From assembly GCF_028869115.1 (NCBI RefSeq), contig NZ_CP079800.1:2889501-2953500 (forward strand): DNA of 64,000 nucleotides, written 5' to 3'. Source of the stretch: Pseudemcibacter aquimaris (GTDB taxonomy: Bacteria > Pseudomonadota > Alphaproteobacteria > Sphingomonadales > Emcibacteraceae). This document shows, piece by piece, positions 10,344 to 25,209 of the stretch (within the stretch, counting starts at the first letter, position 1; the number at the start of each line of letters is the position of its first letter). The notes beneath the pieces are model-generated. The model was not told where the DNA came from. It was given only the letters and a program-made list of their open reading frames with translations, and did no database searches. The position numbers and the translations under genes are program-made.

Positions 10344-11516
10344 TTACGAGCGCGCATTCGCAAGGATGACGCGCTCTTTTCTTTTGGGGTTTAGGCCGAA
10401 ACAAATTCTGATGAGATTGTTTCTTTTAATCACAGCTTCTATTAATCCCCAGCTGATAAGGTATGTACCTATTAGGATAAAAACAAATTCAACAATCCCG
10501 TTAAAACCCCAATCAATAATGTAATATCCAATGATGATCGTAACGGATTGATGCAAAATATAAAATGGATAGACAATTGAATTACCATAGTTCAGAAATT
10601 CATTTCTGAAATTAAGGTGGTGTTTTGCAAACCCTAAAATAGTCGCAATCCAAGACCATTTAATAATCATTTCCACCAAATCCCATTGAATAACATCAAG
10701 TGGTGTATCAAAATGATATTTAATCAGGTTAGTGCCATATGCAAGAAGCGCAAGCGCAAGTGCTTTATATCTGTTTCTGGCAAAAGCATCCCAGACGGTC
10801 GGCATTCTGACAAATAAAACCCCCATAATCAGAATATAAATATAGATAAAATGCCCAAAACTATCATCGATGATATTGTGGGTAATATCGTTATCCCCTC
10901 TATAGAAAAAGACCGCAAGATAAAGAATATAAGGTGCCCATAAAATACGTGCGCCACGTGATAGCCAGTTTTCAATTTTTGATAGCAACTTATGTCCAGC
11001 TTCACTATTAGCAAAGAAGATAACCGGGACCAGAACAGCCGTATAAGCAAAAAGATACACCACATACCACATATGATTATATGTCGGTACAGGGGTTAGC
11101 ATTCCATCCCAAAACTGACCTGTGAAATACTGGGTTGTCCAAAACTGCCAAAAACCGGGTTCGATAATCCCTTTTTGTAGTGCTTCGAAATATGGCTGTG
11201 GCGCAACAATGAATATCGTTGCTACAAAGGCCGGAATGAACAATTTTACCACACGTTGTTTTAAAAAGGACGCCATGGTCATTTTTGTCATCATCACACT
11301 GATGGCCACACCGGAAACAAGAAACAATAAGTCCATACGCCACTGCGATGTCAGCATCATGAATGATCTTAAAAGACTGCTGTCATGTCCGCTTTCAATA
11401 TGAAACGGCCAATCAACAAACATCATGCCTGTATGAAAAAAAACAAGATAGGCAAAAGCAAGTACCCTGACCCAGTCCAGAAAATGCTGGCGTTTATTAT
11501 AGACATCCAAATTCAT
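10344..11516 (-). CDS. Acyltransferase 3 family membrane protein
   Basis: I chose the ATG at 11516 (390 residues; MNLDVYNKRQHFLDWVRVLA) because a GGAGA ribosome binding site precedes it and the family signature (FLDWVRVLAFAYLVFFHTGM, with the catalytic-type His near residue 29) starts there. A reading up to 60 residues longer is open but has no family features. About ten hydrophobic segments follow, including QWRMDLLFLVSGVAISVMM and PFYILHQSVTIIIGYYI near the C-terminus. Family members O-acylate sugars or lipids or export succinylated glucans at the inner membrane. It is divergent from a LytTR regulator, which suggests joint control from the shared intergenic region. Confidence 0.88.
   Translation of the reverse strand: MNLDVYNKRQHFLDWVRVLAFAYLVFFHTGMMFVDWPFHIESGHDSSLLRSFMMLTSQWRMDLLFLVSGVAISVMMTKMTMASFLKQRVVKLFIPAFVATIFIVAPQPYFEALQKGIIEPGFWQFWTTQYFTGQFWDGMLTPVPTYNHMWYVVYLFAYTAVLVPVIFFANSEAGHKLLSKIENWLSRGARILWAPYILYLAVFFYRGDNDITHNIIDDSFGHFIYIYILIMGVLFVRMPTVWDAFARNRYKALALALLAYGTNLIKYHFDTPLDVIQWDLVEMIIKWSWIATILGFAKHHLNFRNEFLNYGNSIVYPFYILHQSVTIIIGYYIIDWGFNGIVEFVFILIGTYLISWGLIEAVIKRNNLIRICFGLNPKRKERVILANARS
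10348..10384 (+). terminator. Intrinsic terminator of the SYLF gene, inside the convergent gene
   Basis: The stem GAGCGCG/CGCGCTC with a 15-base loop is followed by ttttctttt on the plus strand. It lies within the last codons of the minus-strand acyltransferase gene (stop at 10344), so the sequence is both coding and terminating. Confidence 0.75.
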
Positions 11517-11608
11517 CGAAATTCTCCAATTCAAAATTAAATCATTGAATTCATGATGCATTTTTGGGAAACTCTTTGCGATAAGAATGGGATAAGTGAA
11601 CGGACAAA

Positions 11609-11661
11609 GTGACAATCGGTTTATCACTTGTGATAAGCGGCACCTATCCTGTGACAAGCGG
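11609..11661 (+). repeat. Three direct repeats GTGAYAAKCGG at exact 21-bp spacing (probable LytTR operator)
   Basis: Units are GTGACAATCGG at 11609, GTGATAAGCGG at 11630 and GTGACAAGCGG at 11651, starting exactly 21 bases apart (two helical turns). A weaker copy, GGGATAAGTGA, lies near 11589. LytTR domains typically bind direct repeats spaced by about two turns. The array ends 11 bases before the LytTR gene's ATG and lies between it and the divergent acyltransferase gene. Binding is inferred; the repeats are seen directly. Confidence 0.8.
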
Positions 11662-12493: not shown

Positions 12494-13519
12494 ATGAAAA
12501 ACTTACTAAAAATTGCACTGCTTGCCGGTGCTGCATCGGTCGCGATAACCAGTGCATCCAAAGCGCAAGATATGCCATATGAAGAAATAGAAGGCGTATG
12601 GGCAGAACTGCCTGACGGTCGTAAATGGGGTTCAACCAGTACCGTTTATTACGGTGGTGACGGAACCATTTGGGCCGCAGAACGTTGTGGCGCAAACGGC
12701 AACTGTCTGGATACGCCGGATATTGATCCTGTTATGCAAATCAGCAAAGACGGTAAAATTCTTAAAACATTCGGTAAAGGTTTAATCGTATGGCCACATG
12801 GTATCCATGTTGACCCAGATGGCAATGTGTGGATCGCTGATGGTCGCGGTGACGAAGAACGTGGTGTTGGCCATCAAGTTCATAAATTTAGTCCAGACGG
12901 CGAATTATTAATGTCCCTTGGACAAGCCGGTAAAGCGGGTAAAGGTGCCTATACATTTGACCAACCATGCGATGTACTCGTTGCACCAAACGGTGATATT
13001 TTCGTTGCCGATGGTCACTCACCACGTGGCAATAATCGTGTTGTAAAATACAACAGCAAAGGCGAGTACATCATGGAATTTGGTGGTGACGGTGCTGAGT
13101 TCGGTGAAATGTATGAACCACATAGTTTGGCTATGGATAGTCAAGGACGTCTATTTGTCGCAGACAGATACAATGACCGAATTCAAATTTTCACTCAAGA
13201 CGGAGAATTTATCAATTCATGGCGTCAATTTGGCCGCCCAAGCGGTGTTTATATCGATGCCAATGATATTCTTTATGTTGCCGATAGTGAAAGTAATTCA
13301 GGCGGCACACGTAACCCTGGATGGGACCGCGGCATTCGCATAGGTAGTGCGAAAACAGGTTGGGTAACGGCATTCATTCCTGATCCTGACAAGGGCGTTG
13401 CCTTTAGCCGTGCAGAAGGTGTAACAGCCGATGATGAAGGCAACGTTTACGGCGCAGAAGTGGAAGAAAGAAATCTTAGAAAATATGTTCCACGCGGTAC
13501 TTTGCCTAGCCCTTACTAA
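12494..13519 (+). CDS. Secreted NHL-repeat beta-propeller protein (amidating-lyase-like)
   Basis: The 341-residue protein has a signal peptide (MKNLLKIALLAGAASVAITS, cleavage near SKAQ) and at least five NHL repeats, for example GIHVDPDGNVWIADG, CDVLVAPNGDIFVADGH, SLAMDSQGRLFVADRYNDRI and GVYIDANDILYVADS. Architecture and spacing resemble the lyase (PAL) half of peptidylglycine alpha-amidating enzymes, a six-bladed propeller, but enzymatic activity is not shown. It has a strong aaggagaagg ribosome binding site, lies just after the LytTR regulator gene and has its own terminator. Confidence 0.85.
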   Translation: MKNLLKIALLAGAASVAITSASKAQDMPYEEIEGVWAELPDGRKWGSTSTVYYGGDGTIWAAERCGANGNCLDTPDIDPVMQISKDGKILKTFGKGLIVWPHGIHVDPDGNVWIADGRGDEERGVGHQVHKFSPDGELLMSLGQAGKAGKGAYTFDQPCDVLVAPNGDIFVADGHSPRGNNRVVKYNSKGEYIMEFGGDGAEFGEMYEPHSLAMDSQGRLFVADRYNDRIQIFTQDGEFINSWRQFGRPSGVYIDANDILYVADSESNSGGTRNPGWDRGIRIGSAKTGWVTAFIPDPDKGVAFSRAEGVTADDEGNVYGAEVEERNLRKYVPRGTLPSPY

Positions 13520-15942: not shown

Positions 15943-16311
15943 TTATTGCAGAGCCCATGCAAGTGGAACAACCATTGTTAGCTGTGCGTCTGATGCATCA
16001 GCAGGTGGTGTTGGAAGCGGGCTTACACGCTTCATAAGCTTTGGGATCTCACGATCAAGAACATCGTGGCCTGATGATGCCTTGATTGAATGTGCAACGA
16101 TATTGCCTTCACGGTCTACATTAATTTCAACCTGAACTTTGCCCTCAAGTTCTTTACGAAGTGCTGCACGTGGATATGTTTGTTTTTTAGCAATTTTCTT
16201 AGAAACTTCTTTTTGCCATCCGCTGATGTCTGCTGCTTGTGCAGATGTTGCGAAACCTGAAATCGCGATAAAAGATGCTACTACTACTGATACGATTGTC
16301 TTAATACTCAT
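15943..16311 (-). CDS. Secreted stand-alone TonB C-terminal domain protein (copy 1)
   Basis: The 122-residue protein has a signal peptide (to about residue 27, VVVASFIAISGFATSAQA) and then only a TonB C-terminal domain: YPRAALRKELEGKVQVEINV, GNIVAHSIKASSGHDVLD and VPLAWALQ at the end. There is no retained N-terminal anchor and no Pro-rich periplasm-spanning linker, so it is not a standard energy transducer and should be free in the periplasm after cleavage. A close paralogue lies 355 bases upstream on the same strand. The ribosome binding site is ggagag. Confidence 0.85.
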   Translation of the reverse strand: MSIKTIVSVVVASFIAISGFATSAQAADISGWQKEVSKKIAKKQTYPRAALRKELEGKVQVEINVDREGNIVAHSIKASSGHDVLDREIPKLMKRVSPLPTPPADASDAQLTMVVPLAWALQ

Positions 16312-16666: not shown

Positions 16667-17041
16667 TTATTGTAGTGCCCAAGCTAGTGGAACAACCATT
16701 GTAAGCTGTGCATCAGATGCGCCTGCAGGTGGTGCAGGAAGTGGGCTTACACGTTTCATCAGTTTTGGAATTTCACGGTCAAGTACATCATGACCTGATG
16801 ATTCTGTAACTGAGTGAGCAACGATGTTGCCTTCACGGTCTACATTGATTTCAACTTTAATTCTGCCCTCAAGTTCTTTACGAAGTGCTGCACGTGGATA
16901 TGTTTGCTTTTTAGCAATTTTCTTAGTGACTTCTTTTTGCCAGCCACTGATGTCTTGTGCATTTGCTGTTGTTGCGAATCCGGCTACTGCCATTGTAACT
17001 GCAACGAATACTGATACCATTACTTTACTTAACTTGCCCAT
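16667..17041 (-). CDS. Secreted stand-alone TonB C-terminal domain protein (copy 2)
   Basis: The 124-residue product matches copy 1 almost throughout its mature part, with about nine differences in 96 residues (for example GRIKVEINV against GKVQVEINV). This indicates a fairly recent tandem duplication kept under selection. It has a signal peptide (MGKLSKVMVSVFVAVTMAVA, cleavage near ANA) and a TonB C-terminal domain only. Such a free domain could bind TonB boxes of outer-membrane receptors or cap them, but no function is known for this form. Confidence 0.85.
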   Translation of the reverse strand: MGKLSKVMVSVFVAVTMAVAGFATTANAQDISGWQKEVTKKIAKKQTYPRAALRKELEGRIKVEINVDREGNIVAHSVTESSGHDVLDREIPKLMKRVSPLPAPPAGASDAQLTMVVPLAWALQ

Positions 17042-23274: not shown

Positions 23275-25209
23275 ATGAACGCAAATAGAGAAGTAGCCTT
23301 AACCCTGCCAGATGGCAGCGTCCGCAAATTTGATGGACCGGTGACAGGTATGACGCTTGCTCAAGATATTGGCCCTGGTCTTGCCAAGGCTGCGATTGTA
23401 ATCGTCGTTAACGGCGAACAATGGGATCTGTCACGTGAAATAACGGAAGACGCCGAAGTATCCATCATCACAAAACGCGATGAAGAAGCACTTGAAATCA
23501 TTCGCCATGATGCGGCGCATATTCTTGCGGAAGCGGTGAAAGAATTATACCCGGATACTCAAGTGACAATCGGCCCTGCTATTGAAAATGGTTTCTATTA
23601 TGACTTCGCACGCGAAGAACCATTTACACCGGATGATCTGGAAAAAATTGAAAAACGCATGAAAGAAATCGTTGCCCGCGACGAAGAAATTATCCGCACC
23701 GAAATGCCACGTGACGAGGCCGTAGAATTTTTCCGCAACATGGGTGAAGAATATAAAGCAGAAATCATCGCGAGCATTCCGTCAAATGAACCGATTACTC
23801 TGTATAAACAGGGTGACTTCATTGACCTATGTCGTGGACCACATTTACCAAGCACCAAATACCTTGGTGGCGATACATTCAAATTGATGAATGTGGCAGG
23901 CGCTTACTGGCGTGGTGACAGTGAAAATGAAATGCTACAACGCGTTTACGGTACAGCATGGCGCGATAAAAAAGAACTTAAAGCCTATCTTCACCGTCTT
24001 GAAGAAGCCGAAAAGCGCGATCACCGTAAACTGGGTAAAGAATTAAATCTTTTCCATTTTCAGGAAGAAGCCGCCGGCATGCCATTCTGGCATCCAAACG
24101 GCTGGACCATTTACACACAGATCGAAGGTTACATGCGCCGTAAACAACGCGCACACGGATATCAGGAAATTAACACCCCGAAACTTGTTGACCGTAAGTT
24201 ATGGGAAGATTCCGGTCACTGGGAAAAATTCCGTGAACATATGTACACCACAGATTCAGAAGAACGCACATTTGCACTTAAGCCAATGAACTGCCCATGT
24301 CATGTGCAGGTTTTCAATCAAGGTCTGGTCAGTTACCGTGACCTACCGATGCGTCTTGCCGAATTTGGAAGCTGTCACCGTTATGAACCGTCGGGTGCCC
24401 TTCACGGACTGATGCGCGTTCGTTCATTCGTACAGGATGATGCCCATATTTTCTGTGAAAAAGATAAAATCACAGAAGAAACAGAAACATTCTGTAATAT
24501 GCTTCTTGAAATTTATAAGGATTTTGGCTTTGAAGAAGTGAAGGTCAAATTCTCTGACCGTCCAGAAACACGTGCCGGTTCTGATGAAGTTTGGGATGAG
24601 GCAGAAAAATGCCTGATCGATGCCGTTGAACATGTGGGGCTTGAATATACATTAAACCCAGGCGAAGGTGCATTTTACGGACCAAAACTTGAATTCGTGC
24701 TTACCGATGCCATCGGCCGTGACTGGCAATGTGGCACGCTTCAGGTTGATTTCGTACTGCCGGAACGCCTTGACGCCAACTACATCGGCGCCGATAATAA
24801 TAAGCACCGCCCTGTGATGCTTCACCGTGCGATCCTTGGGTCATTTGAACGTTTTATCGGTATTCTAATCGAAAACCATGCGGGACGCTTCCCGATGTGG
24901 CTTGCGCCCACACAGGTTGTTGTCACCGGCATTACTTCGGATCAGGATGATTATGTAAAAGAAGTTTACGAGAAATTAAAAGCCGCAGGACTGCGCGCTG
25001 ATTTCGATCTAAGAAACGAAAAAATCAATTATAAAATTCGTGAACATTCACATGCAAAAGTTCCCGCGATTTTCGTCGCAGGTGGCCGTGAAGCAGAAAA
25101 TAATACAATTACAGTAAGAAGACTTGGGTCAAAAAATCAGGAAACCCTTGATTTAACTGACGCAATTAATAAACTTGTCATCGAGTCTACTGATCCAGAT
25201 TTACGATAA
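23275..25209 (+). CDS. thrS: Threonine-tRNA ligase
   Basis: The 644-residue enzyme charges tRNA-Thr. It has an N-terminal TGS domain (residues 1-65), an editing domain ([17 protein letters not shown] ... and the second-site motif [15 protein letters not shown]), a class II catalytic core with the zinc-ligand motif [10 protein letters not shown] near residue 340, the motif 2 region [17 protein letters not shown], and an anticodon-binding domain ([12 protein letters not shown] to the end). It is complete, and infC starts 54 bases downstream as in many bacteria. Confidence 0.98.

Follow-up and report, generated by a model that had tools for sequence, protein, structure and literature searches.

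A phased array of predicted LytTR half-sites beside a membrane acyltransferase gene in Pseudemcibacter aquimaris and its relatives

The locus and its intergenic array

The window analyzed here is a 64,000-nucleotide stretch of Pseudemcibacter aquimaris DNA (contig NZ_CP079800.1, positions 2,889,501 to 2,953,500). Within it, a gene for a LytTR regulator and a gene for a membrane acyltransferase diverge from an intergenic region that carries a series of short direct repeats (Table 1). The locus has close relatives in Emcibacteraceae.

Table 1. Genes and predicted regulatory features of the LytTR/acyltransferase locus (window coordinates; rc, reverse complement)
Feature	Position	Strand	Description
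Divergent acyltransferase	10344..11516	-	Acyl_transf_3, PF01757 E=4e-27 (Pfam); MdoC-like below cut-off
AT-rich conserved block, candidate -10 region	11535..11552	-	Lies between the array and the start of the acyltransferase gene; seen in an alignment of 11 genus loci
Half-site 4, partial, predicted	11589..11599	+	GGGATAAGTGA; without the CGG part; 20 bp closer to acyltransferase; kept in most genus relatives
LytTR half-site 1, predicted	11609..11619	+	GTGACAATCGG (rc CCGATTGTCAC); kept in orthologues
LytTR half-site 2, predicted	11630..11640	+	GTGATAAGCGG (rc CCGCTTATCAC); +21; kept in orthologues
LytTR half-site 3, predicted	11651..11661	+	GTGACAAGCGG (rc CCGCTTGTCAC); +21; kept in orthologues
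LytTR regulator, 267 aa	11673..12476	+	Four membrane-type helices (residues 9-152), LytTR domain (175-266), no receiver

The regulator matches the LytTR domain PF04397 with E=3.6e-22 (78.8 bits against a Pfam cut-off of 22.6). No other Pfam domain was matched, the MHYT domain PF03707 included, and the four-helix region has no Pfam name. An AlphaFold2 model based on an alignment of 11 relatives, with a mean pLDDT of 84.7, places four long helices (residues 9-36, 44-70, 78-110 and 120-152) ahead of a LytTR beta fold that Foldseek matches to the LytTR structures of AgrA with DNA and of ComE, and a receiver domain is absent by both Pfam and the model. These results agree with an earlier sequence-only reading of the gene as a membrane-embedded LytTR regulator without a receiver. 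On the strength of the model, the regulator is of the transmembrane one-component LytTR kind represented by CoxC and HigX, its location in the membrane being predicted from the helices.

Directly 3' of the LytTR gene lies a gene for a secreted-type NHL-repeat beta-propeller protein (12494-13519, +), which may share one transcript with it. An NHL-repeat gene is also seen at loci L003, L035, L038 and L222, directly after LytTR in several genus relatives; in L003 two adjacent copies lie about 1 kb downstream. Farther along the window, a tandem pair of genes (15943-16311 and 16667-17041, -) encodes small TonB-like secreted proteins that closely resemble each other; the pair apparently stems from a recent duplication. 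The sequence TATAAA immediately 5' of the LytTR ATG was considered as a -10 box and rejected because the start site would land inside the gene.

The start of the acyltransferase gene was set by homology together with a GGAGAA ribosome site at 11522-11527. Against the NCBIfam MdoC model the protein scores 79 bits, far from the cut-off of 338, and an opgG-type gene (MdoG) was not found in the P. aquimaris genome and was present in 1 of 60 relatives. We therefore rejected a reading of the enzyme as the OpgC/MdoC succinyltransferase of osmoregulated periplasmic glucans. The acyltransferase probably modifies the cell envelope, and its acceptor is likely an envelope glycan or lipid other than the canonical periplasmic glucan.

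Three exact forward-strand matches to GTGAYAAKCGG, with steps of 21 and 21 bp, make up the core of the array. They had been described as exact 21-bp direct repeats; the three copies and their 21-bp steps stand, but the repeated unit is an 11-bp degenerate half-site, and the 10-bp spacers differ from one another. A weaker fourth copy does lie at 11589, as the same reading had proposed; its step is 20 bp. It is not simply decayed, though, since the element, CTTATCCCAT in the direction of the acyltransferase, is found again at this step in most relatives within the genus. Read in that direction, the genus alignment runs CCGYTTRTCAC, CCGCTTRTCAC, CCGATTRTCAC, the fourth copy, the AT-rich block and the ribosome site in turn.

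Roughly 1e-13 three-copy arrays are expected by chance in 64 kb, and when the intergenic region was shuffled 300 times with its dinucleotides preserved, the score of the array was never reached. A default-seed repeat search of the window found nothing because the repeat is degenerate. The window holds a fourth exact GTGAYAAKCGG match, at 23563, which is solitary, apparently inside coding sequence, and expected by chance. We found no second such array in the 3.37-Mb genome, where the next-best pairs need 3 mismatches. A global regulon was rejected on the same search, as all further matches need 3 mismatches. The presence of one array only per genome points to a dedicated target.

Conservation and geometry

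The sequence-only reading had suggested looking for such arrays in related genomes. We searched 198 genomes of the order with a two-site pattern and no protein information, and all 24 distinct places with 0-1 mismatches were LytTR/acyltransferase loci. Class-wide, matches with up to 2 mismatches were mostly background, similar to a reversed-pattern control, and were used solely to pick those adjoining LytTR genes. Several of these class-level matches fall on the same module, as in Niveispirillum cyanobacteriorum (L142, L229). A gammaproteobacterial plasmid, from Pseudoalteromonas xiamenensis, also carries a divergent LytTR/acyltransferase pair (L226:1621-3795), where GGGATTAGCGG is the one good half-site and is followed 20 bp later by a partial one.

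Loci were also chosen by protein, using a profile of the regulator's membrane domain alone (A3) against 385 genomes of the class and 120 of the order. The acyltransferase was divergent in 46 of the 62 loci examined. Calling a three-site array at p<=0.01 against each locus's own dinucleotide shuffles, we found significant arrays in 41/46 divergent loci and in 0/14 other LytTR loci without an acyltransferase neighbor, despite the longer stretches scanned in the latter (600 bp); the genomes are related, so these counts are not independent trials, and the scoring consensus was taken partly from the same loci, with the shuffles and the other LytTR loci as controls. In 40 divergent loci, three or more half-sites score 8/10 or better and are in helical phase. 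The array is conserved beside regulators only about 30% identical. The repeats are thus present upstream of orthologues, where their absence would have counted against the sequence-only reading, and this distribution lends support to its description of the repeats as a strong candidate operator array. Five divergent loci had no significant array (L216, L192 and L197-L199), the last three being second paralogues in their genomes, and the array is likewise missing at several membrane-domain LytTR genes that have no acyltransferase nearby. Based on these comparisons, the array is best read as an ancient operator and not a local oddity.

Phased half-sites also occur closely upstream of a set of membrane-domain LytTR paralogues whose fetched stretches contain no acyltransferase (L190, L191, L193, L194, L140 and L204). 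Some half-sites in this set are altered (GGGACAAACGC, GGGACAAGTGA).

Strong half-site copies have a nearly uniform orientation, 125 in one direction and 3 in the other. Adjacent copies are most often spaced by 21 bp (45 cases), followed by 31 (13), 20 (12) and 30 bp (3), with a few others. The genus pattern is 20-21-21, and 31-21 is common in family f5. When distances are counted from the best copy, the frequency of matches rises at 20-21, 30-31, 41-42 and 51-52 bp and stays flat in the intervals, with no other peak. These peaks correspond to whole helical turns, which places the half-sites on one face of the DNA, as had been proposed for the three copies in the window. Direct repeats two turns apart on one face are the layout of LytTR operators, and it is found here in the 20-21 bp steps, supplemented by 30-31 and 51-52 bp.

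Likeness to known LytTR systems

In reverse complement, the array consensus CCG(N)TTRTCAC / CCGYTTRTC resembles the core site of AlgR from Pseudomonas aeruginosa, CCGTTCGTC, and its algD-RB3 variant, CCGTTTGTC (PMC4064291). Copies in relatives, GGGACGAACGG and GTGACAAACGG, contain the reverse complement of the AlgR core/algD-RB3 sequence exactly. AlgR likewise controls an envelope polysaccharide, but it is a two-component response regulator whose sites are scattered, unlike the phased array seen here (PMC4064291).

In operator architecture, the nearest precedents by analogy are the three-repeat operators of CoxC and RcoM. CoxC, an MHYT-LytTR protein acting at PcoxB of Afipia carboxidovorans, is an alphaproteobacterial membrane-anchored one-component LytTR repressor that binds three direct repeats 18-21 bp apart, all three of which are needed for repression (PMC11347149). 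Its seven-helix MHYT domain senses CO, its repeats are TTNNNGCN, and it represses the cox genes (PMC11347149), whereas the regulator studied here has four helices in a domain that Pfam does not name, half-sites like those of AlgR and an acyltransferase as its predicted target. RcoM1 of Paraburkholderia xenovorans, as far as PMC11347149 recounts it, shares a direct-repeat triplet, spaced by two turns, to which a LytTR domain binds, but it has a heme-based CO sensor domain, TTCNNGCA repeats and CO oxidation genes as its targets.

HigX of Caulobacter crescentus is closer in protein architecture: it joins a four-helix membrane domain to a LytTR domain, has no receiver, is linked to the envelope, and has been described as a possible 'fused LRS' (PMC13384398). 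Membrane anchoring is reported to be needed for HigX. ChIP gave it an imperfect inverted repeat, ATGTTASC-GSTACCAT, as motif and many targets, and the paper mentions no acyltransferase (PMC13384398); the array found here consists of direct repeats and is single in the genome. In LRS systems, as PMC6193735 is represented in PMC13384398, LytTR control is also linked to a small multi-helix membrane protein, but that inhibitor is a separate protein, whereas here the helices and the LytTR domain form one chain. A separate membrane inhibitor gene, a trait of LRS, is absent 3' of the LytTR gene in the window, where the next gene encodes the NHL-repeat protein.

Predicted target and mode of control

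We consider it very probable, from sequence conservation and geometry, that the adjacent membrane-anchored LytTR protein uses the array as its operator and is a dedicated one-component regulator, most likely an activator of the acyltransferase gene. In the mechanism we propose, LytTR domains would bind CCG(N)TT(R)TC-type half-sites on one DNA face, at whole-turn intervals, beside the acyltransferase promoter. The bound regulator would control the acyltransferase gene, most likely by activating it, while its four-helix membrane domain would feel a signal, and the regulator would thereby govern acylation of the envelope.

LytTR activators usually sit upstream of the -35 region. If the AT-rich block is the -10 region, the array would take that same place, immediately 5' of -35, and it is this position, with the array ending 73 bp before the acyltransferase ATG, that makes activation more probable than repression. 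A regulator that uses the same operator to repress the acyltransferase until a signal releases it, as CoxC does on the cox genes, is possible but, in our judgment, unlikely. The position of the array relative to start sites at this locus is itself a prediction, and CoxC, the best-studied membrane LytTR protein with a three-repeat operator, is a repressor; the CoxC operator, however, overlaps the -35 instead of lying upstream of it (PMC11347149).

The array might also mainly be an autoregulatory operator of the LytTR gene, with any effect on the acyltransferase secondary. Consistent with this, 10-20 bp separate the last half-site from the LytTR start that follows it, both in the window (where the array ends 11 bp before the LytTR ATG) and in several relatives, and arrays occur near LytTR genes at four f5 paralogue loci and two f12 loci in whose fetched stretches we detected no acyltransferase. 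Across loci, however, the distance from the array to the acyltransferase N-terminus is narrowly held (median 114 bp, interquartile 105-124, about 80-130 bp overall), whereas the array-to-LytTR distance varies between -24 and 839 bp. In two genus relatives (L035 and L036) the array is more than 800 bp from the LytTR gene and still at the acyltransferase. Between array and LytTR these loci carry a secreted, metal-dependent hydrolase-like gene with an HPHYDHDG motif (L035:6001-6792, -; L036:7456-8253, +), which occupies the first-gene position of the LytTR operon. This arrangement accounts for the apparent lack of an array near LytTR in G009 and G005, where the array sits at the acyltransferase with the hydrolase-like gene intervening. 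In the more distant family f73, three loci (L141, L208 and L201) have the LytTR and acyltransferase genes in tandem; three phased half-sites in the usual orientation lie 82-142 bp from the acyltransferase N-terminus, the nearest at 82-100 bp, and no array is found upstream of LytTR. A mainly autoregulatory role is therefore improbable on these observations. It is to the acyltransferase, and not to the LytTR gene, that the array holds a steady distance and orientation, so the acyltransferase promoter is its predicted conserved target. The sequence-only reading had held that the array may also control the acyltransferase; the tie to that gene stands, but the emphasis shifts, with acyltransferase control the main claim and not a secondary one. 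LytTR autoregulation is possible, as the array also ends near the LytTR start, but would not be a conserved feature.

We regard it as very improbable that another transcription factor uses the array: LytTR as its binder is a prediction, but the motif is found together with this LytTR subfamily, agrees with the AlgR half-site and shows the geometry of LytTR-type two-turn direct repeats. Although single 11-mer matches arise elsewhere by chance, an origin of the array in chance or low-complexity repeats is refuted by its expected frequency and its conservation beside such diverged regulators.

Alphaproteobacterial LytTR proteins are mostly membrane proteins, and to our knowledge few of their targets and binding sites have been described. 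We found no description of the LytTR-acyltransferase pair in the open-access literature searched. Tentatively, and with rather less than even confidence, we suggest that the pair may be an undescribed, ancient alphaproteobacterial module, in which a four-helix membrane-anchored LytTR protein serves a single target, the membrane acyltransferase, by way of three to five half-sites arrayed on one DNA face at whole-turn steps (two, three or five turns). Such an anchored regulator may read the state of the envelope directly and act as a phased oligomer that holds the promoter at the membrane. The whole subfamily now has a predicted operator, a half-site rule, a spacing rule and a single conserved target. 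Binding, regulation and sensing are open to direct test in P. aquimaris or in cultured relatives such as N. cyanobacteriorum, which has both the pair and a phased array. Through the predicted operator, a membrane-anchored transcription factor is tied to the control of a membrane acyltransferase that probably acts on the envelope.
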